Positions 3,595-23,565 of a stretch of DNA of 23,565 nt are shown piece after piece. Source of the DNA: a virus; the IMG/VR virus record IMGVR_UViG_3300021957_005116, positions 1-23,565 of that record. The stretch is one strand, 5' to 3'. The notes beneath the pieces are model-generated. The model ran no database searches. It had not been told where the DNA came from and worked only from the letters and a program-made list of their open reading frames with translations. The position numbers and the translations under genes were made by a program. Every line of letters starts with the position of its first letter. Position 1 is the stretch's first letter.

Positions 3595-3607
3595 TGGGAT
3601 AAAAACA

Positions 3608-4157: not shown

Positions 4158-4164
4158 TGCATTC

Positions 4165-4191: not shown

Positions 4192-4220
4192 ATGTTTATA
4201 TAACAAATAAGGAGATAACA

Positions 4221-4469: not shown

Positions 4470-4593
4470 CGATGATGAAATCAAAGGATCAATAGAAGAA
4501 GATCATATATTAGTAAAATCTGCTACTATTGATTTTGAAGAACTAAAAAAACTAGCTAAACAAAGTGCTTTGAAGAAGCAAGACGAAAGCTGA
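4447..4593 (+). CDS. Small acidic protein with TTG start, 48 aa
   Basis: A short frame begins at TTG 4447 inside the end of the preceding gene, with an excellent AAAGGAG seven bases before it, and ends with TGA at 4591-4593. The protein starts TKVILPDDDEIKGSIEEDH after the initiator, and ends in a Lys-rich helix (IDFEELKKLAKQSALKKQ). There is no membrane segment or known motif. The stop codon falls within the 5' part of the tmRNA acceptor piece, so ribosomes finishing this gene would run onto the tmRNA precursor. It was chosen because the ribosome binding site and frame fit exactly; a TTG start makes it less certain. Confidence 0.6.
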   Translation: MTKVILPDDDEIKGSIEEDHILVKSATIDFEELKKLAKQSALKKQDES

Positions 4594-4835: not shown

Positions 4836-4846
4836 CGAGAAATATA

Positions 4847-8283: not shown

Positions 8284-8966
8284 CAGATAATATAAAAGAA
8301 TTGAATGAACAAGGTTATACTATTGTAAAAAATTTAGTAGACATTGAACTTATAGACAATATATACAACTCAGTAAATAGAGTATTTCAAAAACAAGCAG
8401 ACCGTACTGGGTGTAAAGATATGGAGGAGCTAAAAGCTAAACACTATGATTTGTGGAATCTTTGTGATCTACATTGTCAATGGAATTTACATGGACACTA
8501 TTTGCAATGTTTACTAGGATTTAAAATGGCTGAGTTTATGACTAACCCAGATGTTAGTATAAATGTAAGACCTATAATATATTGTGATCAATACCTTCCT
8601 ATTAAAATGAGAGGCTCTACTGATTCTTTAGTATGTTGTGTACCTTTAATTACGGAAAAAGAATCAGGGTATATACAAATGATTCCTAAAAAATTAGATT
8701 CAGATCGTAACATTACATATAAAGTGCACACACGTGAGTGGCGCGATGCAGATGATAAAGATTGGGTGTCTATTGATGTTCCTAAAGGAGATATTTTAGT
8801 ATTTGCTCATGATGTAGCACATAGACATAGTAAAGCAAAAGATGGTAGTTTGTGGTATGCTTATTATACTTTTAATAATATGAATGATCCTGCATTTATT
8901 GAAGCAGGATACCCGCATCCTTATACTGATTGGACTAAAAGAGACTACTCAGATGAACATGCATAA
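8277..8966 (+). CDS. Phytanoyl-CoA dioxygenase-like protein, metal and cosubstrate ligands lost
   Basis: The protein is a tandem paralogue of its right-hand neighbour: EQGYTIVKNLVDIELIDNIY at the N-terminus and WNLHGHYLQCLLGFKMAEFM align throughout. The neighbour has an HxD iron motif at 120-122. Here the corresponding region is about 15 residues shorter (IYCDQYLPIKMRGSTDS) and has no HxD. The distal His remains (VAHRH, His182), but the 2-oxoglutarate-binding Arg of the neighbour (Arg208) aligns with Leu192. Two iron ligands and the salt-bridge Arg are thus missing, so it is probably a pseudoenzyme, perhaps forming a heteromer with the active copy. It overlaps the propeller gene by seven bases; GGAG precedes the start. 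Fold call good; role unknown. Confidence 0.78.
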   Translation: MLTDNIKELNEQGYTIVKNLVDIELIDNIYNSVNRVFQKQADRTGCKDMEELKAKHYDLWNLCDLHCQWNLHGHYLQCLLGFKMAEFMTNPDVSINVRPIIYCDQYLPIKMRGSTDSLVCCVPLITEKESGYIQMIPKKLDSDRNITYKVHTREWRDADDKDWVSIDVPKGDILVFAHDVAHRHSKAKDGSLWYAYYTFNNMNDPAFIEAGYPHPYTDWTKRDYSDEHA

Positions 8967-8992
8967 ATAAAAAATAAGAGGGGGTATAAAAT

Positions 8993-9715
8993 ATGAAAAC
9001 AACTAATTTAAAAGAAATAGAAGAACAAGGTTATACTATTGTAGATAATCTTGTTGAAACTGCATTTTTAGATGCAATTAAAGAATCAATTACAGCAATA
9101 TTTGAAAAACAGATAGAATATACAAAAAGTAAAGATATTGTAGATTTATTTGAAAATCACAATGAAAGATTTGCTAACTGCACAAAACATGCTCAATGGA
9201 ATTTACAATTACATCATTTAGGTGTAATGCTAGGTTATAAAATAGCTAAATGTATGATTGAACCACAGGTTAGTATTTGTACTAGACCTGTAATATATTT
9301 TAATAATAAAGATACAGCAGAAAAAGAAGTGCATCACACAACTCCTGCACATCAAGATTCTAAGTCTATGCAAGGTTCTAGTGATGCAGTAGTATGTTGG
9401 GTTCCTTTAATAGACATTACAGAAGAGTTAGGACAGCTACAAGTTGTTCCTAAAAGTCATAAACAAGGAGATTTAACAAAATCTATACATGAAGGCTTTG
9501 GTTTAGTAGAAGATTCCGACTTTAAATTTGAATCTGTAAAAGTAAAAAAAGGCTCAGTTCTAGTTTTTGACTCTAATTTAGTTCACAAAAGCGGTGATAT
9601 TAAAGAAGGCACTCGTTGGTCAGCACACTTTAGATTTAATAATATGTATGATCCTGAATATATTGTAAAAGGATACCCACATAATTATATTTACGCACCA
9701 AAGAGTAAAGCATGA
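8993..9715 (+). CDS. Phytanoyl-CoA dioxygenase-like Fe(II)/2-oxoglutarate oxygenase
   Basis: At 240 aa this matches the PhyH family, double-stranded beta-helix enzymes that hydroxylate a substrate with O2 and 2-oxoglutarate. The iron site is complete: HQD (His120/Asp122) and His198 in SNLVHKSGD. Arg208 in GTRWSAHFRF would hold 2-oxoglutarate. The conserved WVPLID and GQLQVVPKSHK strands are present. A strong Gly-rich ribosome site (AAGAGGGGG) precedes it in the 26-base gap. It ends overlapping the glycosyltransferase start (ATGA). Next to sugar genes, hydroxylation of a sugar or lipid precursor is likely; the substrate is unknown. Confidence 0.87.
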   Translation: MKTTNLKEIEEQGYTIVDNLVETAFLDAIKESITAIFEKQIEYTKSKDIVDLFENHNERFANCTKHAQWNLQLHHLGVMLGYKIAKCMIEPQVSICTRPVIYFNNKDTAEKEVHHTTPAHQDSKSMQGSSDAVVCWVPLIDITEELGQLQVVPKSHKQGDLTKSIHEGFGLVEDSDFKFESVKVKKGSVLVFDSNLVHKSGDIKEGTRWSAHFRFNNMYDPEYIVKGYPHNYIYAPKSKA

Positions 9716-10479
9716 TTCGTATAATTTATAGAACTTGTGGCTGGAATAACCATAATAATAGGCCTGACTGGTTTCATTATAGAAGTTGTTGGGAAAATCT
9801 AGTTGATACAAGTAAAATTGCTGATTGTGCTATAATGGTGCTTTATGATGGTAAACTACAAGGACATGAAGAGTATAACTATCATGCAGAAGTATTAGAA
9901 ATTGATAGTGCTGCCAAACTTCCTGAATTATATAAAAAATGGGAATTAGGTAGTGATACATATATAGATCATGACGAACAAGGTAGAGAAATACATAAAA
10001 GAGTAGAAGCTCCAGACAGGGAAAAAGCATCTGGATATTTAATGTATGAATTAATTAGAGACAACATTAATGACTGGGATGATAATGATATTATATATCT
10101 TGTAGAAGATGATTATATGCACATGCCTGGTTGGACTACTGTTTTACAAAATATATATGATATGTATGACGGTATAAATTATGTTTCTTTATATGATCAT
10201 CCTGATAAATATACTCCAAGGTATCAAGGATTACAAAGTCAAATTATAATATCTAATTATTGTCACTGGAGAACAGTTCCTAGTAGTTGTGGAACCTTTG
10301 CTGGTAGAGTAAAAACTTTTAAGGAAGATTTAGATATTCACATGGGTAGTCTAGGAGACCATAATAAATTTACTCTTTTAGCAGAAAGAAATAGAAATAT
10401 AGTATCTGCAATGCCTGCTTTTGCTACACACTGTGTTGAACCTTGGGCATCTCCTTTTAGAGATTGGGCTAATATATGA
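9712..10479 (+). CDS. GT-A-fold glycosyltransferase-like protein
   Basis: The 255-aa protein begins with a short beta-alpha start (MIRIIYRTCGW) and has a clear metal/nucleotide-binding acidic patch, YLVEDDYMHMPGW (129-141), the DxD-like motif of GT-A enzymes followed by the common 'PGW' turn. A later SSCGTFAGRVKTF resembles the acceptor-loop region. It has no membrane segment and is therefore cytoplasmic or peripheral. ATGA overlap with the upstream oxygenase and the downstream aminotransferase puts it in the same transcription unit. The sugar donor cannot be assigned, and a close match to a numbered CAZy family was not recognised. Confidence 0.72.
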   Translation: MIRIIYRTCGWNNHNNRPDWFHYRSCWENLVDTSKIADCAIMVLYDGKLQGHEEYNYHAEVLEIDSAAKLPELYKKWELGSDTYIDHDEQGREIHKRVEAPDREKASGYLMYELIRDNINDWDDNDIIYLVEDDYMHMPGWTTVLQNIYDMYDGINYVSLYDHPDKYTPRYQGLQSQIIISNYCHWRTVPSSCGTFAGRVKTFKEDLDIHMGSLGDHNKFTLLAERNRNIVSAMPAFATHCVEPWASPFRDWANI

Positions 10480-11486
10480 TACCTTTTACTATTAAGAAAC
10501 AACTTGATTCTAATAGATTTAATGAATATTTACTTACAGCTAATACTACTAATCAATTTACAAATTATGGTTATGCCGTACAACTTTTAGAAGAACGTGC
10601 TAGAACTATGTTAAAAATTGATGATAGTAAAGTAGTTATTGCTACTTCTAGTGGTACTTCTGCGCTAGATGCTATAATAAATGGGATGATAAGAAAAGAC
10701 TCTCATAATTATAGAGTAGGAACTCAAGCATTTACTTTTCCCTCTAATAGAATAGGCACTGCACGAGGAGCTATTATAACTGATATGACTCCTGAATGTA
10801 ATATAAATTTAGATAATGAGTATATACAACAATCTGCTGATTTGGTTATAGTTACTAATATATTTGGTCATTTACAGGATATAACTGAGGTATCTAACAA
10901 AACAGAGCATAGAAATAAAAAATTAATATTTGATAATGCTGCATCTCCTTATTCATTTTGGAAAGGCACTAATACTTGTAATCTAGGAACAGCAAGTTAT
11001 ATATCATTACATCATACAAAACCTATAGGTTTTGGTGAAGGTGGTTTAGTTATAATTGACAAAGAATATGAAAATAGTGTAAGAGCTGCTTGTAATTTTG
11101 GTATAGTAAATGGTATAGCTAATGAATACGGTGGTAATTATAAAATGAGTGAATTAAGTGCTGCTGGTATTTTACAGTGGTGGGATCAATTTAATATTGA
11201 TGAAATGCAAAATATATTTATAAAAAATTATAATACTTTAAGATACGAAATGAGAAATGAAAATGGAGATTTTTGGATTAATCATACTTCTGATACTTGG
11301 TTTCCTACTTGTTTACCTTTTATATCTAACTCACCTATAGATGAATTATCAGGAAAATATGACAGTAAAGAATATAGAAAATACTATAAACCTTTAGCTG
11401 AAGGTTATGTAGTATCAGATATTATGTATAATAATATTATGTGTATTGCATTAACTGAGGGAGTAGAAAAATGTATAAACGTATAG
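10476..11486 (+). CDS. DegT/DnrJ/EryC1/StrS-family sugar aminotransferase (second copy)
   Basis: The 336-aa protein has the family landmarks: ATSSGTSALDAIING (56-70) with the cofactor phosphate-binding turn, LIFDNAASPYS (Asp153) for the pyridine nitrogen, and the Schiff-base lysine in SLHHTKPIGFGEGG (Lys182). The 'K..GFGEGG' run is typical of sugar 3- or 4-aminotransferases. It is clearly different in sequence from the copy at 1595, so not a recent duplicate. It is immediately followed, with a 16-base overlap, by an RmlB-like 4,6-dehydratase. That order suggests a keto sugar is formed and then aminated. An active enzyme is expected. Confidence 0.88.
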   Translation: MIPFTIKKQLDSNRFNEYLLTANTTNQFTNYGYAVQLLEERARTMLKIDDSKVVIATSSGTSALDAIINGMIRKDSHNYRVGTQAFTFPSNRIGTARGAIITDMTPECNINLDNEYIQQSADLVIVTNIFGHLQDITEVSNKTEHRNKKLIFDNAASPYSFWKGTNTCNLGTASYISLHHTKPIGFGEGGLVIIDKEYENSVRAACNFGIVNGIANEYGGNYKMSELSAAGILQWWDQFNIDEMQNIFIKNYNTLRYEMRNENGDFWINHTSDTWFPTCLPFISNSPIDELSGKYDSKEYRKYYKPLAEGYVVSDIMYNNIMCIALTEGVEKCINV

Positions 11487-12454
11487 CTGTAGTAACAGGA
11501 TGTGCAGGTTTTATAGGAACTACCTTTACAAGATTACTACTTGAAAAAGGATGGTTAGTATATGGGATAGATAAGTTTACATATGTAGCTAATTTTGAAG
11601 AAGTACAATGGCTTGCAGATACATATCCTGATACTTTTACTTATACTGTGGAAGACATTAAAGATATAGATAGACTTCCTGAGTGTGATGTAGTATTTAA
11701 TTTAGCTGCTGAATCTGATGTAGACAATAGTATCGTTAATATGGATAAGTTTATTGATTCTAATATTTCAGGCGTAAAAAACTTATTAGAAATAATAACA
11801 CATAAAAGTGTGCAAATAAAACATAATAAACCGTTATTTTTTCAAGTCTCTACAGATGAAGTGTATGGAGATACGGTAGCAGAAAGTTTTGATGAAACAG
11901 CTGCTTTAATGCCTAGTAACCCTTATGCAGCTACTAAAGCAGCTGCTGATATGCTTATAGAAAGCTGGTCTAGGACTCATGGATTAGATTATATAATTGC
12001 TAGACCTTCTAATAATTATGGTGAAAATCAATATCCAGAAAAATTAGTACCTACAGCGGTTAGATGTCTACAACGGGGTAAAAAAATTAAATTACATGAC
12101 AAAGGAAAACCTATTAGATCATGGACTCATGTAGAAGATACTGCAGAAGCATTTATTTTACTATATGAAAAGGCGTGTAGAAATAATATTTATAATATAC
12201 AGTCAGATTACGAACAAACAAATTTTGTAACTGTTAAAAAAATAATAAATGCTTATTTTATGGGTGATATTGCCACAGATATTCCAGATTATAATAAACA
12301 TATAGATTATAGTTATGATAGACCAGGACAAGATGTAAGATATTCAATATCATGTGAATCTATTAAAAACTACGGATGGTATCCTAAAAAAGATTTTGAT
12401 AAAGAGATTAGTAAATTAATTAACTATTATAAAAAAAGAAAGTGGAAATGGTAA
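11471..12454 (+). CDS. dTDP-glucose 4,6-dehydratase-like extended SDR (RmlB family)
   Basis: The Rossmann motif TGCAGFIGTT (9-18), the FNLAAESDVDNSI strand and the catalytic STDEVYGDT (127-135; Thr128, Asp129, Glu130) match RmlB, where Asp and Glu carry out the dehydration. YAATKAAAD gives the Tyr152/Lys156 pair. RPSNNYGENQYPEKLVPTAV and DRPGQDVRYSI are also RmlB hallmarks. It should convert a nucleoside-diphospho-hexose to the 4-keto-6-deoxy intermediate, the entry point to most deoxyamino sugars. The donor nucleotide (dTDP, GDP or CDP) is not proven. It is coupled by overlap to the aminotransferase before and the epimerase after. Confidence 0.87.
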   Translation: MYKRIAVVTGCAGFIGTTFTRLLLEKGWLVYGIDKFTYVANFEEVQWLADTYPDTFTYTVEDIKDIDRLPECDVVFNLAAESDVDNSIVNMDKFIDSNISGVKNLLEIITHKSVQIKHNKPLFFQVSTDEVYGDTVAESFDETAALMPSNPYAATKAAADMLIESWSRTHGLDYIIARPSNNYGENQYPEKLVPTAVRCLQRGKKIKLHDKGKPIRSWTHVEDTAEAFILLYEKACRNNIYNIQSDYEQTNFVTVKKIINAYFMGDIATDIPDYNKHIDYSYDRPGQDVRYSISCESIKNYGWYPKKDFDKEISKLINYYKKRKWKW

Positions 12455-13464
12455 TGAAAGTTTTTATTACAGGAATTAGTGGGCTACTTGGTAGCACTAT
12501 GGCTAGGTACCTTATTATGCAAGGAGATAAAGTAGTAGGCATTGATAATATGATTGGTGGAGTAGAAGGCAATGTACCAGATCATCAAGATTGTGAATAT
12601 CATAGAGGTGATATACTAGATACAGAACTTATGAAAGAGATTATGACGGGATGTGATGTAGTGTTTCATACAGCATCTTTACCTTATGAAGGTTTAAGTG
12701 TATTTTCTCCTACAGTAACTGCTACTAGTATAGTATCGGGGACTATTAGTACAGCTATTGCTGCATTACATAACAAGGTAAGACTTTTTATAAATTGTTC
12801 TTCTATGGCTAGGTATGGTGATCAAACACCTCCTTTTACAGAAGATATGCCTACAAAACCTGTAGATCCTTATGGGCTAGCTAAAGTGCAAGCAGAAGAA
12901 CATTTACAGATGTTAAGCGAAATACATGGATTAAACTATGTAACAGTAGTTCCTCATAATGTTATTGGAGTAGGACAAAGATATTATGATCCTTTTAGAA
13001 ATGTAGTAGGAATTATGATTAATAGAGCTGCACAAACTAAAAATCTTATAATATATGGTGATGGAGAACAAAAACGTTCTTTTTCAGATGTAAGAGATTG
13101 TATTGTAGCAGTAGAAAGAATTATGAAAAGTTTTCGCACAAACTTATCAGGACAAGTATACAATATCGGGCCTGACGATAATGAAATGTCAATTATACAG
13201 TTAGCTACATTAATTACTCAACTTTCAGAAGTTTATATAAAATTTGATCATTATCCTGATAGACCTAGAGAGGTAAAAGATGCGTATTGTTCTAGTGACA
13301 AAATTAGAAAAGAATTTAACTATAATCCTACTACAGAAGCAAAACAAACTATAGCAGATATGGTAAACTGGATTAAGCCTATTACTCGTGAGTTTGAATA
13401 CCATCTACCTGTAGAACTAATTACAGATCAAACACCTAAAACATGGACGGATAAACTAATTTAA
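12454..13464 (+). CDS. NAD-dependent sugar epimerase/dehydratase (extended SDR)
   Basis: The Rossmann motif TGISGLLGST (6-15) uses a Ser-Gly-Leu variant. The catalytic strand is INCSSMARYG, and YGLAK gives Tyr140/Lys144. Residues IIYGDGEQKRSFSDVRDCI follow the pattern 'i.GdG.q.RdF.yV.D', typical of UDP-glucose/UDP-GalNAc 4-epimerase-like enzymes. At 336 aa it is of usual length. I chose ATG 12454, overlapping the RmlB-like stop (TAATG); ATG 12442 or 12448 are possible starts adding two to four residues. It probably inverts a sugar stereocentre in the same pathway. The end overlaps a small gene by one base. Confidence 0.83.
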   Translation: MKVFITGISGLLGSTMARYLIMQGDKVVGIDNMIGGVEGNVPDHQDCEYHRGDILDTELMKEIMTGCDVVFHTASLPYEGLSVFSPTVTATSIVSGTISTAIAALHNKVRLFINCSSMARYGDQTPPFTEDMPTKPVDPYGLAKVQAEEHLQMLSEIHGLNYVTVVPHNVIGVGQRYYDPFRNVVGIMINRAAQTKNLIIYGDGEQKRSFSDVRDCIVAVERIMKSFRTNLSGQVYNIGPDDNEMSIIQLATLITQLSEVYIKFDHYPDRPREVKDAYCSSDKIRKEFNYNPTTEAKQTIADMVNWIKPITREFEYHLPVELITDQTPKTWTDKLI

Positions 13465-13682
13465 TGAGTAAGATTCAAGAGAAAATAACTGTAATAATGG
13501 ATGAATTACAACAAAAGATGGAAAGTAATGCTCATTTAACAGATGTTACTGCAATAGTTACTTTACTTGCACAAGTATCTATTTATAGAGCACACATGAA
13601 TGATGAAGATAAAGATTACCATGATGCAATTGTATGGTGGTTAGAAGAGTACCCCGAAGGAAAAGCTTGGCGTGAGGAGTAA
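13464..13682 (+). CDS. Small uncharacterised protein, 72 aa
   Basis: The start overlaps the epimerase stop (TAATG) and the end overlaps the next gene. The protein is helical and acidic, starting MSKIQEKITVIMDELQQK, with a Trp-rich C-terminus (WWLEEYPEGKAWREE). It has no membrane helix, no signal peptide and no metal motif. I do not recognise the family. The overlaps and codon use similar to neighbours support a real gene. Confidence 0.6.
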   Translation: MSKIQEKITVIMDELQQKMESNAHLTDVTAIVTLLAQVSIYRAHMNDEDKDYHDAIVWWLEEYPEGKAWREE

Positions 13683-13884
13683 AGATTGTCGTGGCTGTAG
13701 ACATGTTCATTGGGGAGTAGGGTTGGGAGTAGGAATAGCATGTGTTCACCCAAACAATCAAAAATACAATCCAAAACGCCAAAAAGAAGGCGAAGAAAGA
13801 ACTTATTGGAACTCAACAACTCAAGTATTTAATATACCTGATGGATGTCAATTACGAGAGGAAAGAATAGAAAATGGCAGTTAA
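13672..13884 (+). CDS. Small Cys-containing protein, 70 aa, possible zinc-binding
   Basis: It begins with GTG 13672 inside the previous gene. The protein opens DCRGCRHVHWGVGLGVGIAC and carries a further Cys in DGCQLRE, giving CxxC followed by two single Cys plus nearby His, which could bind one zinc ion or an iron-sulfur cluster. The middle is basic and Gln/Asn-rich. No named family is recognised. The GTG start has only a weak upstream site, so translation may be coupled to the upstream gene. Confidence 0.58.
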   Translation: MRSKDCRGCRHVHWGVGLGVGIACVHPNNQKYNPKRQKEGEERTYWNSTTQVFNIPDGCQLREERIENGS

Positions 13885-14614
13885 AGTAATCACACCTTAT
13901 GTGTATGATAATGAAATATTAGAACATAAAGATAAGTTTTGGGATCTTGATATACATTATGAAAAAGATACTGCAGGAATTGGCTCTGATTTAATGTACC
14001 AAAAGATGTGGAATCAATTTCCAGAACATGATATTTTTATACTTCATGCAGATATGCATCCATTTAAAGATGGGTGGTGGGAAGAAATGTTAGAATATGT
14101 TGATAAGTATCCAGAAGCAGGAATGTTGGGTTTACTATTGTTATATCCTGCACAGAATAATAACTATGAACACTATATACAGTGTGCTGGTGGACAATTT
14201 ACTGACGGTAAACCAGATCATTTTGGTAGCGGTTTATTACTTGAAAATAAATCACAATTTAAACAAGATTTAGAAGTTGATGATGGAAGATATACAACAG
14301 TTCGAGAAGTAGCATGGACAACTTTTGGAGGTTGTTATCTTAGAAGAAGTTTTTTAAATACTGTAGGAGATTTTAGTCCAGAATATGAATGGACATATAA
14401 TAGAGATGTTGATTATTGTTTAAAAGCTAGAGAAGCTGGAGAACATATTTATCAAATACCTGTCAGACTTTTACACCATGAATCAAGAGACAACAAAAGA
14501 ATAAAAGATCAATCTAAAGCTGATATGGAAATGAGAAACTTACAAACATTACTGGCGAAATGGGCAAATTCAAAATTTTACAAAACACTGGACAAAGAGA
14601 TAAAAAGTGGATAA
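13874..14614 (+). CDS. GT2-family glycosyltransferase (GT-A fold)
   Basis: The 246-aa protein shows the GT2 layout: an N-terminal strand (VKVITPYVYDNEIL), a DxD-like metal site in FILHADMHPFKDGW (55-68), a central GGCYLRRSFLNTVGDF typical of rhamnosyl- and galactosyl-type transferases, and the acceptor-side acidic motif TYNRDVDYCLKAREAGEHIY (Asp178/Asp180). HHES near residue 201 is a common C-terminal landmark. It lacks membrane helices and should use a nucleotide-sugar donor. Start overlaps the previous gene by 11 bases; the stop overlaps the membrane protein gene. Donor and acceptor are not assignable. Confidence 0.83.
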   Translation: MAVKVITPYVYDNEILEHKDKFWDLDIHYEKDTAGIGSDLMYQKMWNQFPEHDIFILHADMHPFKDGWWEEMLEYVDKYPEAGMLGLLLLYPAQNNNYEHYIQCAGGQFTDGKPDHFGSGLLLENKSQFKQDLEVDDGRYTTVREVAWTTFGGCYLRRSFLNTVGDFSPEYEWTYNRDVDYCLKAREAGEHIYQIPVRLLHHESRDNKRIKDQSKADMEMRNLQTLLAKWANSKFYKTLDKEIKSG

Positions 14615-14843
14615 AGTATATATAACGAAACAAGAAATGTATGATGGTATTGAGAAAGAAGCTAAAAAATTAAAATCAGGAGCTAATGGTCCTATACTAA
14701 CTATATTGTTATGGATATGGATTATGTGGGCACTAATATTCTTAGTAATTCCTGCTTTTATATCCTTAGTATTAGTAGTGGTAGTATATGCACCATTCTA
14801 TCTTGTAGATCAAAAAATTATTAAAAGGAGATATAATGGCTAA
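14607..14843 (+). CDS. Small membrane protein, 78 aa, two hydrophobic segments
   Basis: The start is GTG 14607, overlapping the glycosyltransferase; ATG 14637 is an alternative. After a charged N-terminal third the protein has a long hydrophobic run from about residue 29 to 68 (GPILTILLWIWIMWALIFLV, then a Pro-containing turn and SLVLVVVVYAPFYLV), enough for two membrane helices, and a basic tail (KIIKRRYNG) that would stay in the cytoplasm. A membrane anchor for the neighbouring glycosyltransferases is plausible; a holin-like role cannot be excluded but nothing lysis-related is nearby. Confidence 0.65.
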   Translation: MDKVYITKQEMYDGIEKEAKKLKSGANGPILTILLWIWIMWALIFLVIPAFISLVLVVVVYAPFYLVDQKIIKRRYNG

Positions 14844-15597
14844 GCTAAATAAAGCATGGGTGCAAGCATCCCTAGAAATGTCACAAGTAGATAAAGACAA
14901 ACTTGATTGGTGGCATAAAAAAATTTCAGGGGCATCATCTAATAGATTAAGAGGTTTTATTAATAATTTATGTGGAGCTGATAATGTAAATTATCTTGAA
15001 ATAGGTGTTTACAAAGGTTCTACAATAATTGCAGCAGTAACTAATAATCCTAAAACAAAAGCTTGGGGTATAGAAAATTCTAGCTATGACTTTAGACAAA
15101 CTTTTCCTGATCAAATACCAGAAGGATCTTCTTGCTGGCCTTCTATGATACGTGATTTAAATGAAAATCTAAAAAAATGGAGCACTCATTTAAATTATGT
15201 ACCTGATGCCATTACTATTATAGAAGATTCTTTTCAAAATGTAGATTATAGTAAACTTCCAACATTTAATATATGTTATTTAGACATAGAAAAATTAAAT
15301 CCTGTTATATATGACGAGTTTTTTACCTTAGTATATCCAAAGCTTGATAAAGATTGTGTTTTAATAGTATCAGGAGTTACAAATCCTGTATTTATGGAAG
15401 AATTAAATAAAGCTCTACTTAGACATGATGATAGTTTTACAGTAGATTATGAGTTTTTAAAAGTAAGTGGAGCAGGTTCGGATAGCAGAAATTATTGGAA
15501 TGGAATTAGAGTACTAGGATTAAAAAGAAAAGTTAAAGCAGTAGTTAAATCAATAGTAACTAAAAAACCAACACCTAAACCTAGTAAAGAGGCTTAA
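14836..15597 (+). CDS. Class I SAM-dependent methyltransferase
   Basis: The 253-aa protein has motif I as YLEIGVYKGSTIIAAV (53-68), the 'lEIGvy.G.S' form of Methyltransf_24-type enzymes, preceded by a helical N-terminal region. ICYLDIEKLNPVIYDEFF resembles the strand-4 and downstream region ('D..H....~~~d') but the usual Asp-His is replaced by Asp-Ile, so metal binding is doubtful. The C-terminal 30 residues are Lys/Pro/Thr-rich and probably flexible. AAAAGGAG precedes ATG 14836. It probably O-methylates a sugar. It sits between a membrane protein gene and glycosyltransferases with no gaps. Confidence 0.75.
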   Translation: MAKLNKAWVQASLEMSQVDKDKLDWWHKKISGASSNRLRGFINNLCGADNVNYLEIGVYKGSTIIAAVTNNPKTKAWGIENSSYDFRQTFPDQIPEGSSCWPSMIRDLNENLKKWSTHLNYVPDAITIIEDSFQNVDYSKLPTFNICYLDIEKLNPVIYDEFFTLVYPKLDKDCVLIVSGVTNPVFMEELNKALLRHDDSFTVDYEFLKVSGAGSDSRNYWNGIRVLGLKRKVKAVVKSIVTKKPTPKPSKEA

Positions 15598-16428
15598 ATG
15601 AAAAAGAAATCAGCAATAAGTTTAATAAGTTATGATGCAGCTTATTTACCTGAAAGTATTTCTAGATATTATAATTATGTAGATGAAATTATATTAGGAT
15701 TGGATAAGAACAGAAAAACTTGGAGTGGTAATAGTTTTTCTTTTGATGAAAAACAATTATGGGCAGATTTAAGTGCTATTGATGGAGATTCTAAAATTTC
15801 TATTATAGAAGAAGATTTTGTAAAAAGTAGTGTCGCTATTGAAAATGACAACTATGAAAGAAATTTTCTTAAATCACAATGCACTACTGATTGGATTTTT
15901 AGTTTTGATGCTGATGAGTGGTTAATTAATTCAAAATACTTTTTTTATGAGTATTGCCCTATTGTAGAGCGTTATTATAATAAAGTAGATATTTGTATGA
16001 CTTGGGCAACTCCTTATAAGTCCATTGATGATACAACTTTAGTTATTGTAAATGAAGATGGTAGTCCATTTTTTGGAGAAAATCAAGGAGTAGTTACCTC
16101 TAAAGACAGCACCTTTACATATGCTAGATGGACAGATAAAAGTGCAGCAGGAGCAAATAGAGTTACTTCTCCTCTTATTGCATTACATTGGAGTCTTTGT
16201 AGAGAAAGAGCAGACTTACATCAAAAAATTAATAATATAGGACATTCAGATATAGTAGAAAACGATCCTTTTTATCAAATATGGGAGCAAGTAACTATGG
16301 ATAACTATCATGAGTTACACAATTTTAAAACTTCAGGATTAGGTCAAGCACAATGGCCCCGTTTAAGAGCAATCCCTGCTAGTGAAGTAGAAGATTTTTA
16401 TAAACAAAACGAAGGACAGGCTTACTAA
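15598..16428 (+). CDS. GT2-like glycosyltransferase (GT-A fold)
   Basis: The start follows the methyltransferase stop directly. The 276-aa protein begins SAISLISYDAAYLPESISRY, resembling the first strand and helix of WcaA/KdtX-type GT2 enzymes ('MIvkNEa..l..~l..~'). The metal-binding DxD is in WIFSFDADEWLI (99-110), a very common form in this family. LHWSLCRERADLHQKINNIG near the C-terminus is the typical substrate-loop His-containing segment. No membrane segment is seen. It is likely to add one residue of the phage-modified glycan. Donor unknown. Confidence 0.82.
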   Translation: MKKKSAISLISYDAAYLPESISRYYNYVDEIILGLDKNRKTWSGNSFSFDEKQLWADLSAIDGDSKISIIEEDFVKSSVAIENDNYERNFLKSQCTTDWIFSFDADEWLINSKYFFYEYCPIVERYYNKVDICMTWATPYKSIDDTTLVIVNEDGSPFFGENQGVVTSKDSTFTYARWTDKSAAGANRVTSPLIALHWSLCRERADLHQKINNIGHSDIVENDPFYQIWEQVTMDNYHELHNFKTSGLGQAQWPRLRAIPASEVEDFYKQNEGQAY

Positions 16429-16429
16429 T

Positions 16430-17593
16430 ATGATTATAGATTTTATAGGAAAATTTTATGACAACCATTCTCTATCTATTATTAATAGAAATTTAGCAAT
16501 TAAATTAGCAGAATTACATCCTGATTGGGAAATCTCTATAACACCTTTAGACTCTTATGATCCTGAGTATAGAGTTGAAAAAAATATAGTTAAACAATTA
16601 AAAGTATTAGAACAGGCAGAAACAGGTGAGCCAGATATTCAATTAAGACATTCATATCCGCCTATATGGCAGTGGCCTGCAAGCGATAAAACTAAAGTTG
16701 TGTTTATTCAACCTTGGGAATATACTAAAGCACCTTTTGAATGGCAATATAAGTTTGAAACCTTTGCAGATGCATTAATTGTTCCTAGTAAATATGTAGC
16801 TAACGTATTTAAAGGCGCAGGACTTAACCCTGAAAATTTATATGTAGTACCTAATGGTTATGACGATCAATTATTTAATATATCAGAAGATAACTTAGAA
16901 AGTAATTATATAGATAGTAGTAGATTTAATTTTGTATATGTAGGCAATGCTCAATGGAGAAAAGGTTTAGATATACTTATGAACTCTTGGAAAGATTCTT
17001 TTAAAAAATTTGATAAAGCTACATTAATTATAAAAGATAATCCTAAAATTTATGGACAAAGTAATATACTAGATGAAATTATAAAAATGCAAGTCAAAAC
17101 AGGATGTTCAGAAATTGTATATATAAATGATGATCTATCAGATAAAGAAATGGCATCAATATTTAAAAGTTCAGATATTGTAGTGCACCCTTACAGAGCA
17201 GAAGGGTTTGGTATGCATATACAAGAAGCAATGGCTTGTGGATGTATTCCACTAGTATCTGAACTTGGTCCTACAGATGATTTTGTAAACGCTGATAATG
17301 GTTTTAAGATACCAGTAACTAAAAAATCTGTAAATATAACAGATTTAAATGTATTTGCTATGAAACCAGGAGATGCTATGACAGGAATGAGCACCCATAC
17401 TTTTTATAATGAACCTAATTCTGATGCATTAACAAACGGTATTAAGATGATATATCATTCTCATAATAAAGCAGAAGAGATTTATTCTAAAAAAGATAAT
17501 ATGAATATGGTAAATACTTGGGATAAGATAGCAGAAGACTATATATCTGTATTTGAAGAAGTTAGTGCTAGACAAAATATTGTTAGATATTGA
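16430..17593 (+). CDS. GT4-family glycosyltransferase (GT-B fold)
   Basis: The 387-aa protein has the two-domain GT-B layout: an N-terminal Rossmann domain without the usual 'GG' loop, a linker with VPSKYVANVFKGAGL and VPNGYDDQLFN, and a C-terminal domain starting FNFVYVGNAQWRKGLDILM. The donor-binding EX7E motif is complete in AEGFGMHIQEAMACGCIPLV. It resembles retaining mannosyl- or glucosyltransferases and needs no metal. The gene is the last of the island before the palindrome and the Fe-S module. The stop at 17591-17593 is followed by a real intergenic gap. Confidence 0.86.
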   Translation: MIIDFIGKFYDNHSLSIINRNLAIKLAELHPDWEISITPLDSYDPEYRVEKNIVKQLKVLEQAETGEPDIQLRHSYPPIWQWPASDKTKVVFIQPWEYTKAPFEWQYKFETFADALIVPSKYVANVFKGAGLNPENLYVVPNGYDDQLFNISEDNLESNYIDSSRFNFVYVGNAQWRKGLDILMNSWKDSFKKFDKATLIIKDNPKIYGQSNILDEIIKMQVKTGCSEIVYINDDLSDKEMASIFKSSDIVVHPYRAEGFGMHIQEAMACGCIPLVSELGPTDDFVNADNGFKIPVTKKSVNITDLNVFAMKPGDAMTGMSTHTFYNEPNSDALTNGIKMIYHSHNKAEEIYSKKDNMNMVNTWDKIAEDYISVFEEVSARQNIVRY

Positions 17594-17620
17594 CTTTTTA
17601 ATAATTTGTAATACTATAGT
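17590..17620 (+). promoter_or_regulatory. Possible promoter for the Fe-S/oxygenase module
   Basis: TTGACT (17590-17595) is a good -35 box. The best -10 candidate, TATAGT (17615-17620), is at a long 19-base spacing and lies inside a perfect palindrome. The gap between 17593 and 17638 is among the few non-coding stretches, which supports a control region, but the spacing makes strength uncertain. Confidence 0.4.
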
Positions 17621-17627
17621 ATTACAA
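17606..17627. repeat. Perfect 22-bp palindrome, candidate operator
   Basis: The half-site TTGTAATACTA is followed at once by its exact reverse complement, with no mismatch and no spacer. It overlaps the candidate -10 box and the start of the AAGGAG ribosome site of the Fe-S carrier gene. A dimeric repressor bound here could block transcription; as RNA it could also fold over the ribosome site. I do not match it to a known Fur, IscR or FNR consensus. Confidence 0.75.
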
Positions 17628-17637
17628 GGAGAATAAA

Positions 17638-18111
17638 ATGGACGAATTAGACGAATTTTTTGCAAATCTAGAGGTAGAAGCAATAAATAGTAAATCATTA
17701 GAAATACCTAGTTTAGATAAAAAAATTATTGATGATTTTCATGGTAATGTTCCAATTTTTAATGAGGAAGTTAGCGGGCAATTACCTACTATTACTCCTA
17801 AAGCTCAGATATACATTACAGATGTGTTAGAACAAGGACAATATTTTAGATTTGCAGTAGATGGTGGAGGTTGTTCTGGTTTTAACTATGCTTTTGATGT
17901 AGAGACACATCCTAAAAAAGATGATATACAATTTTCAGAAAGTCCTCCATCTATTATTGATTCTGTTAGTATAAAATATTTATATGGAAGTATTATAGAT
18001 TTAGACACATCAGGTCTAAGTAAACAGCTAAAAGTAGATAATCCAGGAGCTAAAGCTAGTTGTGGTTGCGGAACAAGTTTTGCATTTGATGACTCTATGT
18101 TACTATCATGA
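17638..18111 (+). CDS. IscA/HesB-family (A-type) iron-sulfur cluster carrier
   Basis: Residues 52-151 form an A-type carrier domain, with the three conserved cysteines: GGGCSGFNYAF (Cys79) and ASCGCGTSF (Cys142 and Cys144). These bind an Fe-S cluster or iron and pass it to acceptor proteins; homologues are known in marine phages. The 157 aa include about 50 extra acidic N-terminal residues (MDELDEFFANLEVEAINS onward), absent from typical 110-aa IscA and possibly partner-binding. AAGGAG precedes the ATG and overlaps a 22-bp palindrome, suggesting separate control. Its stop overlaps an iron-dependent oxygenase gene (ATGA), so it probably supports iron enzymes during infection. Confidence 0.88.
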   Translation: MDELDEFFANLEVEAINSKSLEIPSLDKKIIDDFHGNVPIFNEEVSGQLPTITPKAQIYITDVLEQGQYFRFAVDGGGCSGFNYAFDVETHPKKDDIQFSESPPSIIDSVSIKYLYGSIIDLDTSGLSKQLKVDNPGAKASCGCGTSFAFDDSMLLS

Positions 18112-18740
18112 TTTATAAAGAAATTGTAAATGAAAGTGGTCTTCCTTGGTTAGATCTTGATATAGAAGTTCCACATCAAGAAATGCTACAAGAAGCTATA
18201 ACACTAAAAGATGAATTTGTAAAACACAGAGATGAAGATAATGGATCAGGGTATAGTCATAAAGGTTGGAGAAGCCTTTGTATACATGGTATAGATGCTT
18301 ATAAAACTAATCATTATGAGCAATATGGTTATACATCAAATGATGAAGCTCCTTACGTATGGACAGATATATGTTCTAGATGCCCTGTGACTAAAGAATT
18401 TTTTCAAGACTATTTTCCTTATGATACTTATTATAGAGTTAGGTACATGTTACTAGAACCGCAAGGCTATATAACTCCACATACAGATACTGATGTGCAT
18501 AAATTATCTCCAGTTAACTTAGCACTTAATAACCCTGAAGGTTGTAATTTTAAAATGAAAGGTCATAAAGGTTTTTTACCTTTTTCTGCGGGAAAAGCAT
18601 TATTACTAGATGTAGGTAATACACACGCAGTATATAATAATAGTGATGAAGATAGATACCATATAATAATACATGGTAAAGTAAATAAACAATTTAAACA
18701 GTTAGTAGAATATAGTTATGCGAAAAATGGGTCTCAATAA
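18108..18740 (+). CDS. Aspartyl/asparaginyl beta-hydroxylase-like Fe(II)/2-oxoglutarate oxygenase
   Basis: The iron triad is visible: PHTDTD (His125/Asp127) and NTHAVYNNSDEDRYHIIIHG (His173), with Arg183 positioned for 2-oxoglutarate. The 'YITPHTD' and 'GNTHAVYNNSDEDRYHIIIH' patterns are those of the Asp_Arg_Hydrox (aspartyl/asparaginyl hydroxylase) family. At 210 aa it is a compact, cytoplasmic member with no membrane anchor. Start and Fe-S carrier stop overlap (ATGA). The substrate could be a protein side chain or a small molecule. Confidence 0.85.
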   Translation: MIYKEIVNESGLPWLDLDIEVPHQEMLQEAITLKDEFVKHRDEDNGSGYSHKGWRSLCIHGIDAYKTNHYEQYGYTSNDEAPYVWTDICSRCPVTKEFFQDYFPYDTYYRVRYMLLEPQGYITPHTDTDVHKLSPVNLALNNPEGCNFKMKGHKGFLPFSAGKALLLDVGNTHAVYNNSDEDRYHIIIHGKVNKQFKQLVEYSYAKNGSQ

Positions 18741-20091
18741 AAATTATGTAGTAGCTATATTTGATGACCCAAACTTTTCATCTAAAAATATGACTATACA
18801 AGAAAAACGAGCAGAAATTACAGGATTCTTTACTAGATTTAAATATTTTGGTCCTATTATATATGGTAATTCAATTAATGAAGTATTAGATAAAGCACTT
18901 GAGCATAATGTTGAGTTTTGTGTAGCACAGTCTGTAGGACATATAATAAAAGAAGGAAGTTTCTTTAGACTGCTTGAAAAATGGATGGAAAAAAAGAATT
19001 TTTTTGTTACTGGGCATATTATGGACAAAGAAATTCCTAATAGTAATTGGGCAGAAGGAAATGGATATTATGGTCTACACAAACAGTGTATATTAGTTAA
19101 TTTAGATTACTATAAAAAATTTAATAAACCTGTATGGGGAGATGCTAAACATAAACTAGATAAACCAGAACACCTAGCCGCAGCAAATAGACATGCTAAA
19201 GATATTCATGATGATTATACTCCACTATCTTTAAGACCTGCAGAAGAAACAAAAGTATGTACTCCTTTAGTGAGTGGTTGGAATTTTATAAATACTAGTT
19301 TAGAAAATGGACTTACTGTATATAATTTTCATCCTAAAGTTCGAGACGCAAAACAATTTGTTTATCCTACAAGCAGTATAGAAGACTTACAAAACCAATT
19401 ATCTTGGATTAATAACATTGTAAATTACGCACCCCAATGTGTATTTTTATGGAATACAGAAACTTACTTAGATCTTAAATATTGTAAATTAGATAAGCCT
19501 ATTAAAAATTTATATACTCTAGCAGCAAGTTTTAAACCTCATATGATATTAAACACTTTTGGTTTTGAAGAGGATACTATAGTAAATTTTTATGATTATA
19601 GTAAACCTGCATTAGCGTATAAAAATATGATGTTTAAGTATTGGGATGGAGAAGACTATCCTTCTTTTATAAATTGGGCAAGAAAACAATACTCGTTTAA
19701 CGAAACACACGGCACTATGACAGAAAATGAAACAGATCAGAGTCTATGGCAACGTGAAATTAATTGGTGGGGAAGTGAAGCAAATATTAAAGAACATTGG
19801 TATAGATATAAAAAGTTAAAACATACATTTACTCATGTAGATATTTGTAAAGATCCTACACCTATAACTAATAGAATAGTAGCAGATACCAGTAGTTTAA
19901 TTTGGTGGAGTAATGCATTTCATACTGTAAACGCACACTATCTTCAAGGATTACAAGGTGTTACAAACAGTTATAATACATGGATTAATCAAATTAAAAT
20001 AAATAATCCTGACATATGGATTTTAGGTAAAGATTTTATGGATAAACCTATTGAAGGGAATCAGATTAAAGATTATGTTGTTAAAAACTAA
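18718..20091 (+). CDS. Large uncharacterised protein, 457 aa
   Basis: The frame starts inside the oxygenase gene; ATG 18727 is a possible start (both lack a clear ribosome site). The protein is soluble, without signal peptide. The first 160 residues alternate strands and helices (NYVVAIFDDPNFSSKN; FFVTGHIMDKEIPNSNWAEG; YYGLHKQCILVNLDYYKKFN), with a look of nucleotide-sugar-binding GT-A-like proteins, but no DxD is evident. The second half has many Trp and Tyr residues (INWWGSEANIKEHWYRYK; SSLIWWSNAFHTVNAHYLQG). I recognise no family with confidence. It lies between two 2-oxoglutarate oxygenases, suggesting it is their partner or substrate. Confidence 0.7.
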   Translation: MRKMGLNKNYVVAIFDDPNFSSKNMTIQEKRAEITGFFTRFKYFGPIIYGNSINEVLDKALEHNVEFCVAQSVGHIIKEGSFFRLLEKWMEKKNFFVTGHIMDKEIPNSNWAEGNGYYGLHKQCILVNLDYYKKFNKPVWGDAKHKLDKPEHLAAANRHAKDIHDDYTPLSLRPAEETKVCTPLVSGWNFINTSLENGLTVYNFHPKVRDAKQFVYPTSSIEDLQNQLSWINNIVNYAPQCVFLWNTETYLDLKYCKLDKPIKNLYTLAASFKPHMILNTFGFEEDTIVNFYDYSKPALAYKNMMFKYWDGEDYPSFINWARKQYSFNETHGTMTENETDQSLWQREINWWGSEANIKEHWYRYKKLKHTFTHVDICKDPTPITNRIVADTSSLIWWSNAFHTVNAHYLQGLQGVTNSYNTWINQIKINNPDIWILGKDFMDKPIEGNQIKDYVVKN

Positions 20092-20671
20092 AACAAGATT
20101 AAAATTTGATAATAACTGGGTTAAACAGTTAAAATTTGTAGAACATACAGACCAAGATTTAGCGGGTCATGTAGACGCTATTTCTATTAAAAGTGAATCA
20201 GGTAGTGTATTTGATTTTTATAGATCTAATCCTTTAGAGAACCCTGATGATTTTAAATATACTGCGCTATATAACAAAATACCAGAAGTTAAAAAATTAG
20301 TAGATCATTTTCAATTACAAACTACTAGAGTGAGAATACACAGACAACTTCCAGGTCAAGAAATTCCTTTACATACTGATGGTAATAATACCGCAGTAAA
20401 AGATAAAAATGATTATATGATTAGAAGTATTACCGCGCTCACTGCAAGTAAAGATTTTATATATAAATTTATAGATACAGAAAATAAACGTAGAGTTCAA
20501 TGTCTAGAACAAGGGGAAACAATATTTTTTGACCCTGACTTAGTAGCACATGGAATGTCAAATGAGTCAAAAACAGAAACTAGATATGCTTTAGTGCAGA
20601 TATTTAAGTTATACCCAGTTACAGCTTGGGCAAGAGATTTTATAAACACTGAAAAAGTAGTAACAATATGA
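20075..20671 (+). CDS. Fe(II)/2-oxoglutarate-dependent oxygenase
   Basis: The 198-aa protein carries an intact iron site: RVRIHRQLPGQEIPLHTDGN (His100/Asp102), His159 in DPDLVAHGMSN and Arg170 in ETRYALVQIF for 2-oxoglutarate. The strand order fits a prolyl/aspartyl hydroxylase-like double-stranded beta-helix, but the precise subfamily is not clear. I chose ATG 20075; the longer frame begins with TTG 20051 inside the previous gene. It ends overlapping the PC4-like gene (ATGA). It is the fourth oxygenase-fold gene in the window. Confidence 0.8.
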   Translation: MLLKTKTRLKFDNNWVKQLKFVEHTDQDLAGHVDAISIKSESGSVFDFYRSNPLENPDDFKYTALYNKIPEVKKLVDHFQLQTTRVRIHRQLPGQEIPLHTDGNNTAVKDKNDYMIRSITALTASKDFIYKFIDTENKRRVQCLEQGETIFFDPDLVAHGMSNESKTETRYALVQIFKLYPVTAWARDFINTEKVVTI

Positions 20672-20955
20672 ATATAGACTTTGGTACAGCATTTCATAAA
20701 CCAAATGGTAATGCAGTAAAAGTGACTATCAATGAATTTAGAGATAAATTATATTTACATATAAGAGATTACACAATGGATGGAGACACAGGACAGTGGT
20801 TTCCTACTAAAACAGGATTTTCTATTCCGGCAGATGAAGTTAGTTCTTTAATACCTTTACTAAATGACGCAGCAGAAGCTGTTGCTCAGAGATATATATG
20901 GAATAATCAATTGGAATTAGAATTTGAAGAATTGGAGAATGAATATGAGTATTAA
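20668..20955 (+). CDS. PC4-like single-stranded DNA-binding protein
   Basis: Residues 16-66 follow the PC4/Sub1 fold: VKVTINEFRDKLYLHIRDYT, a loop with DGDTGQWFPTKTGFSIPADE, then a helix (SLIPLLNDAAEAV). The family's 'v.i.eF.gk.~v.iReyy...g...PtkkGisl' pattern matches well. Small PC4-like proteins in phages bind ssDNA and may act in replication, recombination or transcription. The C-terminus is very acidic (LELEFEELENEYEY), as in many phage ssDNA-binding proteins. The stop overlaps the HTH gene, so the two are coupled. Confidence 0.75.
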   Translation: MNIDFGTAFHKPNGNAVKVTINEFRDKLYLHIRDYTMDGDTGQWFPTKTGFSIPADEVSSLIPLLNDAAEAVAQRYIWNNQLELEFEELENEYEY

Positions 20956-21253
20956 AGCTTGGAATGATGAGCAAGAAGTTGAATTAACTAGACTTTATTT
21001 AGAAGAAGAAATTAAAGATGTACATGAACTAGCTGCTATATTTGAAAAGGGTTATAGAAGCGTGATAAGTAAATTAGTACAGCTTAAGATATATGAAAAA
21101 CCTGAACTTGAAGAAGAAGATAAGTCATTAACTGTAAAAGTTATGCTGAGAGAACTTGAAGAAATACTAGGAGTAGAAGTAATTGGAACTAATTTAAATA
21201 AAAAAGAAAATTTAAGTAAGTTGTTAGAAGCTATCAAAAAGAAGATTGGCTAA
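20945..21253 (+). CDS. Small helix-turn-helix protein, 102 aa
   Basis: I chose ATG 20945, with GGAG seven bases upstream; a longer frame starts at 20924 inside the PC4-like gene. The first 50 residues (WNDEQEVELTRLYLEE, DVHELAAIFEKGYRSVISKL) match a homeodomain-like helix-turn-helix of the kind found in many T4-like marine phages, with the 'RSVisKLvqLkiYekP' recognition-helix end. The rest is acidic and helical. A DNA-binding regulatory role is likely; the target is unknown. Confidence 0.72.
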   Translation: MSIKAWNDEQEVELTRLYLEEEIKDVHELAAIFEKGYRSVISKLVQLKIYEKPELEEEDKSLTVKVMLRELEEILGVEVIGTNLNKKENLSKLLEAIKKKIG

Positions 21254-21798
21254 TGGGAACACTTAAACCAGGTGTACCATTATCCTATGAACGAGTAGGT
21301 GGTGTAGTGTATGGTAGATACCACGGAACAACGGATAGATTTAAAATTGGAGAAGAAATGAGACCAATATCACCAAATGATATAAAACCAGAGCCACATA
21401 GAGTTGGTTGGGATTCTGCTGCTAGACCTGCTCATAACCAATATACACAAGAAGAAATAGAAGATTTAGGTTTTAAAGTGGTTATGGAACGTCAAGAAGA
21501 TGGTTCTATAAATATTGGACCTAAAACAAATGTGTATAAGTTTAATGAAGATAAACTGATAGAAGAGTTTACAGACTATATTGATAGCACTTATGCATCA
21601 CACTATAATACCAACAAAATTCAATCTATGGAAAATATTATAGACAAAGGTCATGGCACTGGATTCTGTATGGGCAATGTTGATAAATATGCAAGTAGAT
21701 ATTTAAATAAAGGTACTAGAGATGATGCTCGTAAAGATTTAATGAAGGTGTTACATTATACACTTCTTCAATTACATATACATGATAATAACTTATAA
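21253..21798 (+). CDS. DUF3310-like phage protein, 181 aa
   Basis: The C-terminal 65 residues (117-177) read HYNTNKIQSMENIID, FCMGNVDKYASRYLNKGTRD and DARKDLMKVLHYTLLQLH, which fits the phage DUF3310 family ('GNaiKYi.R...K.....DL.KA..Yl'). The N-terminal 110 residues look like a separate SH3-like or unknown basic domain (SYERVGGVVYGRYHG), not recognised. DUF3310 proteins are common in phages and of unknown function, sometimes labelled nucleotide kinase without proof. Start overlaps the HTH stop by one base. Confidence 0.72.
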   Translation: MGTLKPGVPLSYERVGGVVYGRYHGTTDRFKIGEEMRPISPNDIKPEPHRVGWDSAARPAHNQYTQEEIEDLGFKVVMERQEDGSINIGPKTNVYKFNEDKLIEEFTDYIDSTYASHYNTNKIQSMENIIDKGHGTGFCMGNVDKYASRYLNKGTRDDARKDLMKVLHYTLLQLHIHDNNL

Positions 21799-21807
21799 GG
21801 ACTACTC

Positions 21808-22119
21808 ATGAAATATATCGTAGATATTGATGGCACTATCTGTCGTGCACATCAATTACCCAGTGGTAAATGGGATTATCAAAATCACACACCTATTGAT
21901 GGAAGAATTACTAGAATAAATAAACTATATGAAGAGGGTCACACTATTAAATATATGACTGCAAGAGGGGCAGTTAGTGGTGTTGATTACTATGAAATGA
22001 CTAAAAATCAATTAGATAGTTGGGGTTGTAAATATCATGAACTGTCAGTTGGTAAAAAAGAACACTACGATATTTGGGTAGATGATAAAGCTCATAATTC
22101 GGAAGTATTCTTTAAATGA
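21808..22119 (+). CDS. HAD-superfamily phosphatase-like protein, 103 aa
   Basis: Motif I is IVDIDGTIC (Asp6/Asp8), motif II YMTARG (Thr51), with Lys83/Lys84 and the acidic motif IV DIWVDDKAHN (Asp92/Asp93). This is the cap-less HAD form of about 100 aa often found in capsule and nucleotide-sugar clusters and in phages. It should hydrolyse a phosphomonoester such as a sugar phosphate or nucleotide. AAGGA precedes the ATG. The stop overlaps the methyltransferase start by four bases. Confidence 0.85.
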   Translation: MKYIVDIDGTICRAHQLPSGKWDYQNHTPIDGRITRINKLYEEGHTIKYMTARGAVSGVDYYEMTKNQLDSWGCKYHELSVGKKEHYDIWVDDKAHNSEVFFK

Positions 22120-22604
22120 CAACCAGTATGAGATGGTTTGCTAATCAGTGGCAAACTCAAGAAGTTGACGAAACTGTGGTAAACAGAGTCTTAGCAGCTA
22201 AAAATGTATTAGACATTGGCTGTGGACATAATCCTTATAAAAAATTCGCTACAGGTAACTTTTTAGGTATTGATGCTTATATTGATACAGCAGATAAACA
22301 TATAGATTTTTTAAATTTTAGAACTAAAGAAAAGTATGACCTCATAATTTCTTATGGGGTTTTTCACTTTCATAGTTTAGATTTAATAGATATGCAACTT
22401 AAAAAAACTATGAAGCTACTTACTCCAGATGGTGTATTATGTATGAAAGTAAATCCTAACTGTCCTAATTTTGATGGTTCTATATTACCGTGGTACAATA
22501 AATGGACAAAATCTCTTGCTTACCACTATGGGGAAGTGTATAATAAAAAAGTTAAAAATATGAGGGAAAGTACTCGTGGGAGATTTAAATGGGAATATGA
22601 ATAG
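22116..22604 (+). CDS. Short class I SAM-dependent methyltransferase
   Basis: Residues 31-43 (VLDIGCGHNPYKK) form the SAM-binding motif I, followed by FLGIDAYID for motif II and YDLIISYGVFHF for motif IV, so the cofactor site is complete. At 162 aa it is at the short end of the family and may lack a full C-terminal beta hairpin. The C-terminus (MRESTRGRFKWEYE) is basic. Substrate unknown. The stop is followed after six bases by the permease start. Confidence 0.77.
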   Translation: MTTSMRWFANQWQTQEVDETVVNRVLAAKNVLDIGCGHNPYKKFATGNFLGIDAYIDTADKHIDFLNFRTKEKYDLIISYGVFHFHSLDLIDMQLKKTMKLLTPDGVLCMKVNPNCPNFDGSILPWYNKWTKSLAYHYGEVYNKKVKNMRESTRGRFKWEYE

Positions 22605-22610
22605 GCAACT

Positions 22611-23565
22611 ATGGAATATTATATTGTAGTATTACTATTAGGTGTTTTTTATGGATTCTTAGTAGGCTTAATACCTGTAGCTGGAGCTACAACAGGACTT
22701 ATTGCCGTATATAGTTTTGTAAGTTACTTTCATGATCCCTATATGTTAGTGGTATTTACTACAGCTATTGTAGTTACAAGTAGTATAGGTGATACCTTCT
22801 GTGGTGTAGTTATGAATATACCTGGAGCAGGAGGCGCTGCCGCTACTATGGTAGATGGTTTTCCCATGAGTCGTAGAGGAGAAGCTGCAAGAGCGCTTAG
22901 TGCTGCAATCAGCACAAGTTGGGTTAATGGTCTTATATGGGGATTGTTAGTTTTTTTGTTCTTACCCTACTACACCAAAATAGTTCTATATTTTGGTACA
23001 GCTGAGATGTTTGGGTTCTTGATCTTTGCAATGACTTGTGTTATATTTATCAGTAGTAAATATTGGTTTAGAGGAGTTATAGCGCTTGTTGCAGGAGTAC
23101 TATTAGGATTAGTAGGAATGGACCCTGATACTGCTGCATCTAGATGGATAACAGTTATACCACAAATTAATTTAGATACATGGTCTTTAACTTTTACTGA
23201 CTGGGAGTATATTGAAGCTGGTATACAAATGATTCCGGTTATGGCAGGTGTTCTTGCATTTCCTGAGTTAGTAAGTGCTTATAGAATGACCACAGAAAAA
23301 GTTACTCTAACAAAAGGTGTCATTAAAGAACAACTTATTCAAGGCATAAAAGATAGTTGGAAATATAGAATAGACGGATTGCGTGGTGGATTTATTGGCG
23401 GATTTGTAGGATTGATACCAGGAATCGGAGGTAATATCGCAGATTGGTTTGCATACTCTCAAACAGTAGCCGTTAGTAAAAAAGAAGGTCATCCAGTAGG
23501 TCAAGGAAATGTACGTGGAGTAATTGGTTGTGAAGGCGCAAATAACGCTCAAAAAGCAACTTCAT
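22611..23565 (+). CDS. tctA: TctA-type tripartite tricarboxylate transporter permease (partial, C-terminus beyond the window)
   Basis: An uninterrupted frame begins at ATG 22611 and runs off the right edge (318 codons). It is strongly hydrophobic with many membrane helices. TctA landmarks are present: an N-terminal GFLVGLIPVAGATTGL, then MNIPGAGGAAATMVDGFPMS with the conserved 'DG.PM', and FVGLIPGIGGNIADWFAYSQ followed by a loop with GNVRGVIGCEGANNAQKA ('G...EgANNA'). TctA is the large inner-membrane subunit of a TctABC system importing citrate and other carboxylates with a periplasmic TctC protein. TctB and TctC are not in this window. Codon use looks like the phage genes around it. It could boost carboxylate uptake in the infected cell. 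Confidence 0.85.
   Translation, partial: MEYYIVVLLLGVFYGFLVGLIPVAGATTGLIAVYSFVSYFHDPYMLVVFTTAIVVTSSIGDTFCGVVMNIPGAGGAAATMVDGFPMSRRGEAARALSAAISTSWVNGLIWGLLVFLFLPYYTKIVLYFGTAEMFGFLIFAMTCVIFISSKYWFRGVIALVAGVLLGLVGMDPDTAASRWITVIPQINLDTWSLTFTDWEYIEAGIQMIPVMAGVLAFPELVSAYRMTTEKVTLTKGVIKEQLIQGIKDSWKYRIDGLRGGFIGGFVGLIPGIGGNIADWFAYSQTVAVSKKEGHPVGQGNVRGVIGCEGANNAQKATS

Follow-up and report, generated by a model that had tools for sequence, protein, structure and literature searches.

In the tripartite TTT systems of bacteria, such as TctCBA of Salmonella, TphC/TpiBA, MatC, and AdpC, the genes for a TctA permease and a binding protein of the TctC/Bug fold are adjacent. The phage locus described here shares this adjacency. 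It differs from the bacterial systems in that no TctB was found, its TctA shows 27–35% identity to the bacterial proteins, and the pincer loop of its TctC is altered. The gene order is also different: the phages have tctA-tctC, whereas most of the closest bacterial loci have tctC-tctA. Another point of comparison is provided by the stand-alone TctA-like proteins of archaea (PMC10133366, PMC5898192), which, like the phage locus, have the TctA domain without TctB but, unlike the phage pair, usually lack TctC. One such protein, encoded without TctB and TctC, is required for DNA uptake and natural transformation (PMC10133366); thus, function cannot be read from the TctA domain alone.

In viral sequences, the closest precedent is a tctA domain of unknown role that Roux et al. 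(2014, PMC4164917; repeated in PMC6359870) noted on a putative SUP05 viral contig. As here, the domain lies on a contig called viral, but the passage concerned describes a single domain match and no pair, clade, carriers, or swapping. The TctC/Bug fold is represented in BFVD by proteins of uncultured Caudovirales phages annotated as PBP2_Bug_TTT or Bordetella uptake protein, but these are only 11–15% identical to the phage TctC considered here. A functional likeness is provided by cyanophage PstS, a phage periplasmic binding protein that aids host uptake. However, PstS is part of an ABC system and uses the membrane parts of the host, whereas the present phages bring the permease too. TctA and TctC are known families; text searches of the open-licence literature returned no description of a phage TctA-TctC pair.

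The tctA gene and its tctC-type neighbour

The analyzed window is a stretch of 23,565 nt, IMG/VR virus record IMGVR_UViG_3300021957_005116. Its final ORF (22611–23565, plus strand) comprises 318 codons with an open 3' end and matches Pfam TctA (PF01970, E = 4.4e-62) over profile positions 1–297 of 423. The frame is intact, the contig end being its sole interruption. The remainder of the gene is found on the IMG/VR viral contig L001 (9,072 bp), which matches window positions 18735–23565 with one mismatch in 4,831 bp (99.98% DNA identity) and reaches 4.2 kb beyond the window end. The complete tctA (L001 positions 3877–5373) encodes 498 amino acids, of which the window holds residues 1–318, and matches positions 1–422 of the 423 in PF01970 (E = 6.3e-80). 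The L001 protein is a full-length member of the TctA permease family. The sequence search found no structure of TctA.

The original prediction of a TctA permease gene on a phage is thus borne out by a full-length family match and by purifying selection on the gene. The truncation of the frame that might have appeared beyond the window is absent, and extension past position 23565 yielded the full gene and then a TctC-type gene. This second gene (L001 positions 5398–6465) encodes 355 amino acids with a hydrophobic N-terminal segment that ends in A-F-A and resembles a Sec signal peptide. A Pfam search of the 355-aa protein gave no match. Among 20 phage TctC relatives, four matched PF03401 (best E = 6.2e-5), and a profile built from the 20 matched BugD (E = 7.6e-6) and MatC/TctC 6hke (E = 6.5e-4) in PDB. 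The AlphaFold model (pLDDT 91.6) is closest to Bug27 (Z 21.6, rmsd 3.1 over 272 residues). Eleven TctC/Bug structures head its ranking with Z of 19.3–21.6, the following family reaches Z 13.9, and Foldseek agrees. By its predicted fold, these structure matches place the protein among the TctC/Bug-type binding proteins.

In TctC/Bug proteins, the pincer motif P-F-x-A-G-G-x-x-D holds the ligand carboxylate, and hydroxyl substitutions at its Asp are known in some Bug proteins (PMC5812351). The phage consensus, P-Q-x-P-G-x-G-T-[ST]-V-W, departs from the family motif and has a hydroxyl residue in place of the Asp. Because the pincer is altered, the ligand of the phage TctC may be unusual, and a carboxylate ligand is not certain. 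In seven loci, among them L027 (4129–4686) and L028 (11439–11996), a 185-aa secreted-looking protein is encoded between tctA and tctC.

Both genes show dN/dS of 0.04–0.09, that is, strong purifying selection, and hence both are functional. The gene had also been regarded as a rare phage cargo and as a TctA that might be supplied alone to the TctB and TctC of the host; neither view fits the distribution. The IMG/VR scan returned 142 TctA stretches and an independent scan with a TctC profile returned 553, both counts including duplicates. A TctC-type gene adjoins tctA on L001, and among 77 further viral TctC loci TctA lies within the fetched DNA in 73, the TctC of the other four being at a contig end.

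Cassette boundary and neighbouring genes

Upstream of tctA, in the same gene run on the plus strand, lie a HAD-like phosphatase-type gene of a phage family (21808–22119; phrog_1238, E = 3.7e-24) and a small SAM-methyltransferase-like gene (22116–22604; weak Methyltransf_12/23 matches under the cut-off). GC content changes from 31% before the 22604/22611 border to 37% after it. A chimeric join at this point, considered from the outset, is excluded. Both L001 and L002 cross the same join, L002 with 88.7% DNA identity to window positions 12605–23467 over 10.9 kb, and the border therefore did not arise during assembly.

The 22604/22611 border is a genuine cassette boundary, up to which the DNA of relatives is common and past which differing tctA-tctC-oxygenase alleles follow. 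Thus, L154 matches the window at 98.3% identity as far as base 22603, after which it has another TctA allele. Past the border, its TctA, TctC, and oxygenase are 48, 65, and 70% identical to those of L001, respectively, and beyond the block similarity returns at 79% DNA identity. The three-gene block swapped between these near-identical phages spans positions 4539–7703 in L154 and 3877–7189 in L001, and its border sits exactly at the methyltransferase stop codon. Before the border, L165 and L137 show 92.3 and 85.8% DNA identity to the window, respectively, and after it a differing TctA (48% amino acid identity). The alternative TctA allele of L154 is present in both of these, as well as in L135, L139, and L132 (97–99.6%). 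In L002, the TctC is 98% identical to that of L001 (dS 0.12), yet the adjoining TctA is at dS 1.34. In L012, L015, L018, and L025, TctA is 75–80% identical to that of L001, TctC only 43–47%. Based on the L154-, L002-, and L012-type allele patterns, we conclude that the permease and the binding protein have been swapped both jointly and separately.

The methyltransferase-like family is found close to tctA in 73 of the 81 phage loci. Around the TctA-TctC pair, a P-loop, possibly sulfotransferase-like protein occurs in 60/81 loci and a 2OG-Fe(II)-oxygenase-like protein in 43/81, and the order of these three neighbours varies. The oxygenase-like protein shows the pattern H-x-D...H...R, and its model, a double-stranded beta-helix, lies close to 2-oxoglutarate oxygenases; the PDB profile search gave no annotation for the methyltransferase and P-loop neighbours. 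Because an oxygenase adjoins an acid importer, 2-oxoglutarate is one candidate substrate of the pair, although this assignment would be a guess from gene context.

Elsewhere in the window, a tmRNA of the permuted alphaproteobacterial type (4531–4875, plus strand; Rfam RF01849, E = 3.5e-29, and RF04321, E = 8.7e-25) hints at an alphaproteobacterial host; a similarity search with it gave only short matches, across Alphaproteobacteria. Its tag peptide is ANDNFAPTGYALAA. The window also encodes an A-type protein of Fe-S biogenesis (17638–18111, plus strand; PF01521, E = 3.1e-11), an Asp/Asn hydroxylase-like protein (18108–18740), and a PhyH-like oxygenase (8277–8966). As judged from translations, many successive genes at 1595–17593 (plus strand) resemble those of aminotransferases, epimerases, glycosyltransferases, and acetyltransferases, which suggests glycan synthesis or surface modification.

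Phage carriers and origin of the pair

Some carriers of the TctA-TctC pair are phage genomes with T4-type hallmark genes. Thus, gp23 is encoded on L004 (299.9 kb), L009 (151 kb), L018 (192 kb), and L029 (383 kb), a portal gene on the same four plus L129, L136, and L167, and a terminase gene on L004, L015, and L029. Terminase or sheath was found in the fetched DNA around the pair in ten loci. The carriers reach the jumbo-myophage range (299.9–383 kb), and the capsid protein of L004 is 64–66% identical to those of jumbo myophages, for example Sinorhizobium phage Phosso and the PA5oct/Paride group. The class of the window phage itself we infer, because the window holds no structural gene and the cassette region is the sole DNA that L004 has in common with L001. 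In cultured phages, TctA matches were limited to 25–31% identity, and a number of these came from records that were short and unannotated or host-like; TctC and the methyltransferase had no match. No PHROG covers TctA, TctC, or the three tested downstream and upstream partners; the weak PHROG methyltransferase matches concern only the window's own methyltransferase gene.

In phylogenetic trees, phage TctA and phage TctC each form one clade beyond long supported branches; these are quick trees, and the branch lengths call for caution. The wider root of the phage clades is uncertain because the bacterial sampling was mostly from Pseudomonadota. A comparison with SAR11, suggested for the window gene, showed no close relation, the phage clade having 27–35% identity to the sampled bacterial TctA, Pelagibacterales included. 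Against this mostly Pseudomonadota sample, neither identity nor the tree supports a recent SAR11 origin of phage TctA.

A scan of 84,980 species with two short peptide patterns, which may miss relatives, found relatives at about 44% in only two genomes. One (L083, 7.9 kb) is a phage-like contig from a Pelagibacter bin, and its genes are ordered as in the phage loci. The other (L082) is an Omnitrophota contig with the TctA-TctC pair among bacterial-looking genes, and it is the sole bacterial member nested inside both phage clades. SAM-methyltransferase-like genes lie to either side of its phage-type pair (3168–5675), which comes with no TctB, an arrangement that echoes the phage neighbourhood. 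Phage-type TctC was found in one of 145 sampled Omnitrophota and, weakly, in one of 240 Alphaproteobacteria. The simplest reading, although not proven, is transfer of the pair from a phage to an Omnitrophota lineage.

Proposed function and alternative explanations

Of the functions suggested at the outset, organic-acid uptake during infection is still the best reading, with both the uptake and the carboxylate substrate presumed. We consider it fairly probable that the pair forms a phage importer that works without TctB and brings a small organic acid into the infected cell. TctA would be made by the phage as an ion-coupled permease of the inner membrane, and the adjoining gene would yield a secreted TctC-type protein of the periplasm that captures the acid and passes it on to TctA, with no TctB subunit involved. 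The likely gain would be additional carbon or reductant, or else a co-substrate (for example 2-oxoglutarate), while a large myophage goes through a long infection. Related phages would switch specificity by swapping the whole pair or one part. Export and assembly in the host, the direction of transport, the carboxylate nature of the substrate, and the benefit are presumed as well, and transport may suffer from the absence of TctB if none is provided by the host.

The strongest alternative, although an unlikely one, is that the pair belongs to a true three-part TTT importer completed by a host TctB or by an unrecognisable phage TctB. TctB is poorly conserved, at about 27% identity on average (PMC5812351), and TctA was found in 39 of 117 Pelagibacterales genomes. 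Moreover, the nearest bacterial TctAs bear a C-terminal extension, which in L107 matches TctB (7.4e-6). Against this alternative, PF07331 had no match at E 0.1 in 50 phage records, many of them fragments but including the 299.9- and 383-kb carriers. A custom profile of seven sequences, the C-terminal domains of related bacterial TctAs, gave one chance match with an interrupted frame in 50 records, including those of 299.9, 328, and 383 kb. A hydropathy scan beside the pair revealed no conserved small multi-span membrane ORF, and the Omnitrophota relative also shows TctA and TctC only. Neither the two profiles nor the scan found anything conserved that would support a hidden TctB. No complete tripartite TTT set, with TctB separate or fused, was present in the phage records searched.

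Improbable, too, is that the pair serves infection rather than nutrition, in superinfection exclusion, periplasmic sensing, or another envelope function. Abrupt swaps of divergent alleles between phages that are otherwise almost identical would be expected of genes in phage-phage conflict as well. A part in signalling is possible for TctC proteins (PMC5812351), and the altered pincer also counts in favour of this reading. However, a full permease would be costly for this purpose, the phage proteins retain the conserved TctA blocks, and pairing of a permease with a binding protein is the pattern of an importer.

The last two explanations are very improbable. Misbinned bacterial DNA or a chimera would agree with the lack of a structural gene in the window and with the GC shift, but not with the two contigs that span the join, the terminase, sheath, gp23, or portal genes on other carriers, or the restriction of close relatives to two genomes in the 84,980-species scan, one of them a phage-like contig. 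Hosts are a frequent source of AMG-type genes, but recent incidental host cargo, functionless in the phage, is at odds with dN/dS of about 0.05, the single deep phage clade, and the conserved pairing.

Returning to the TctB-free importer, we tentatively suggest that it represents a branch of TTT that evolved in viruses and is widespread among uncultured jumbo myophages, with permeases and binding proteins reshuffled from phage to phage to set and change the imported substrate or to fight rival phages. Alleles that combine similar permeases with differing binding proteins lend themselves to testing TTT specificity and the need for TctB, both open questions in the TTT field. Phage-encoded uptake usually involves single parts that lean on host machinery. 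Here, a permease with its own binding protein, a deep viral clade, selection, and swapping suggest that phages control their own import route. Because these large aquatic phages swap importer versions, the choice of what an infected microbe imports may lie with the virus.
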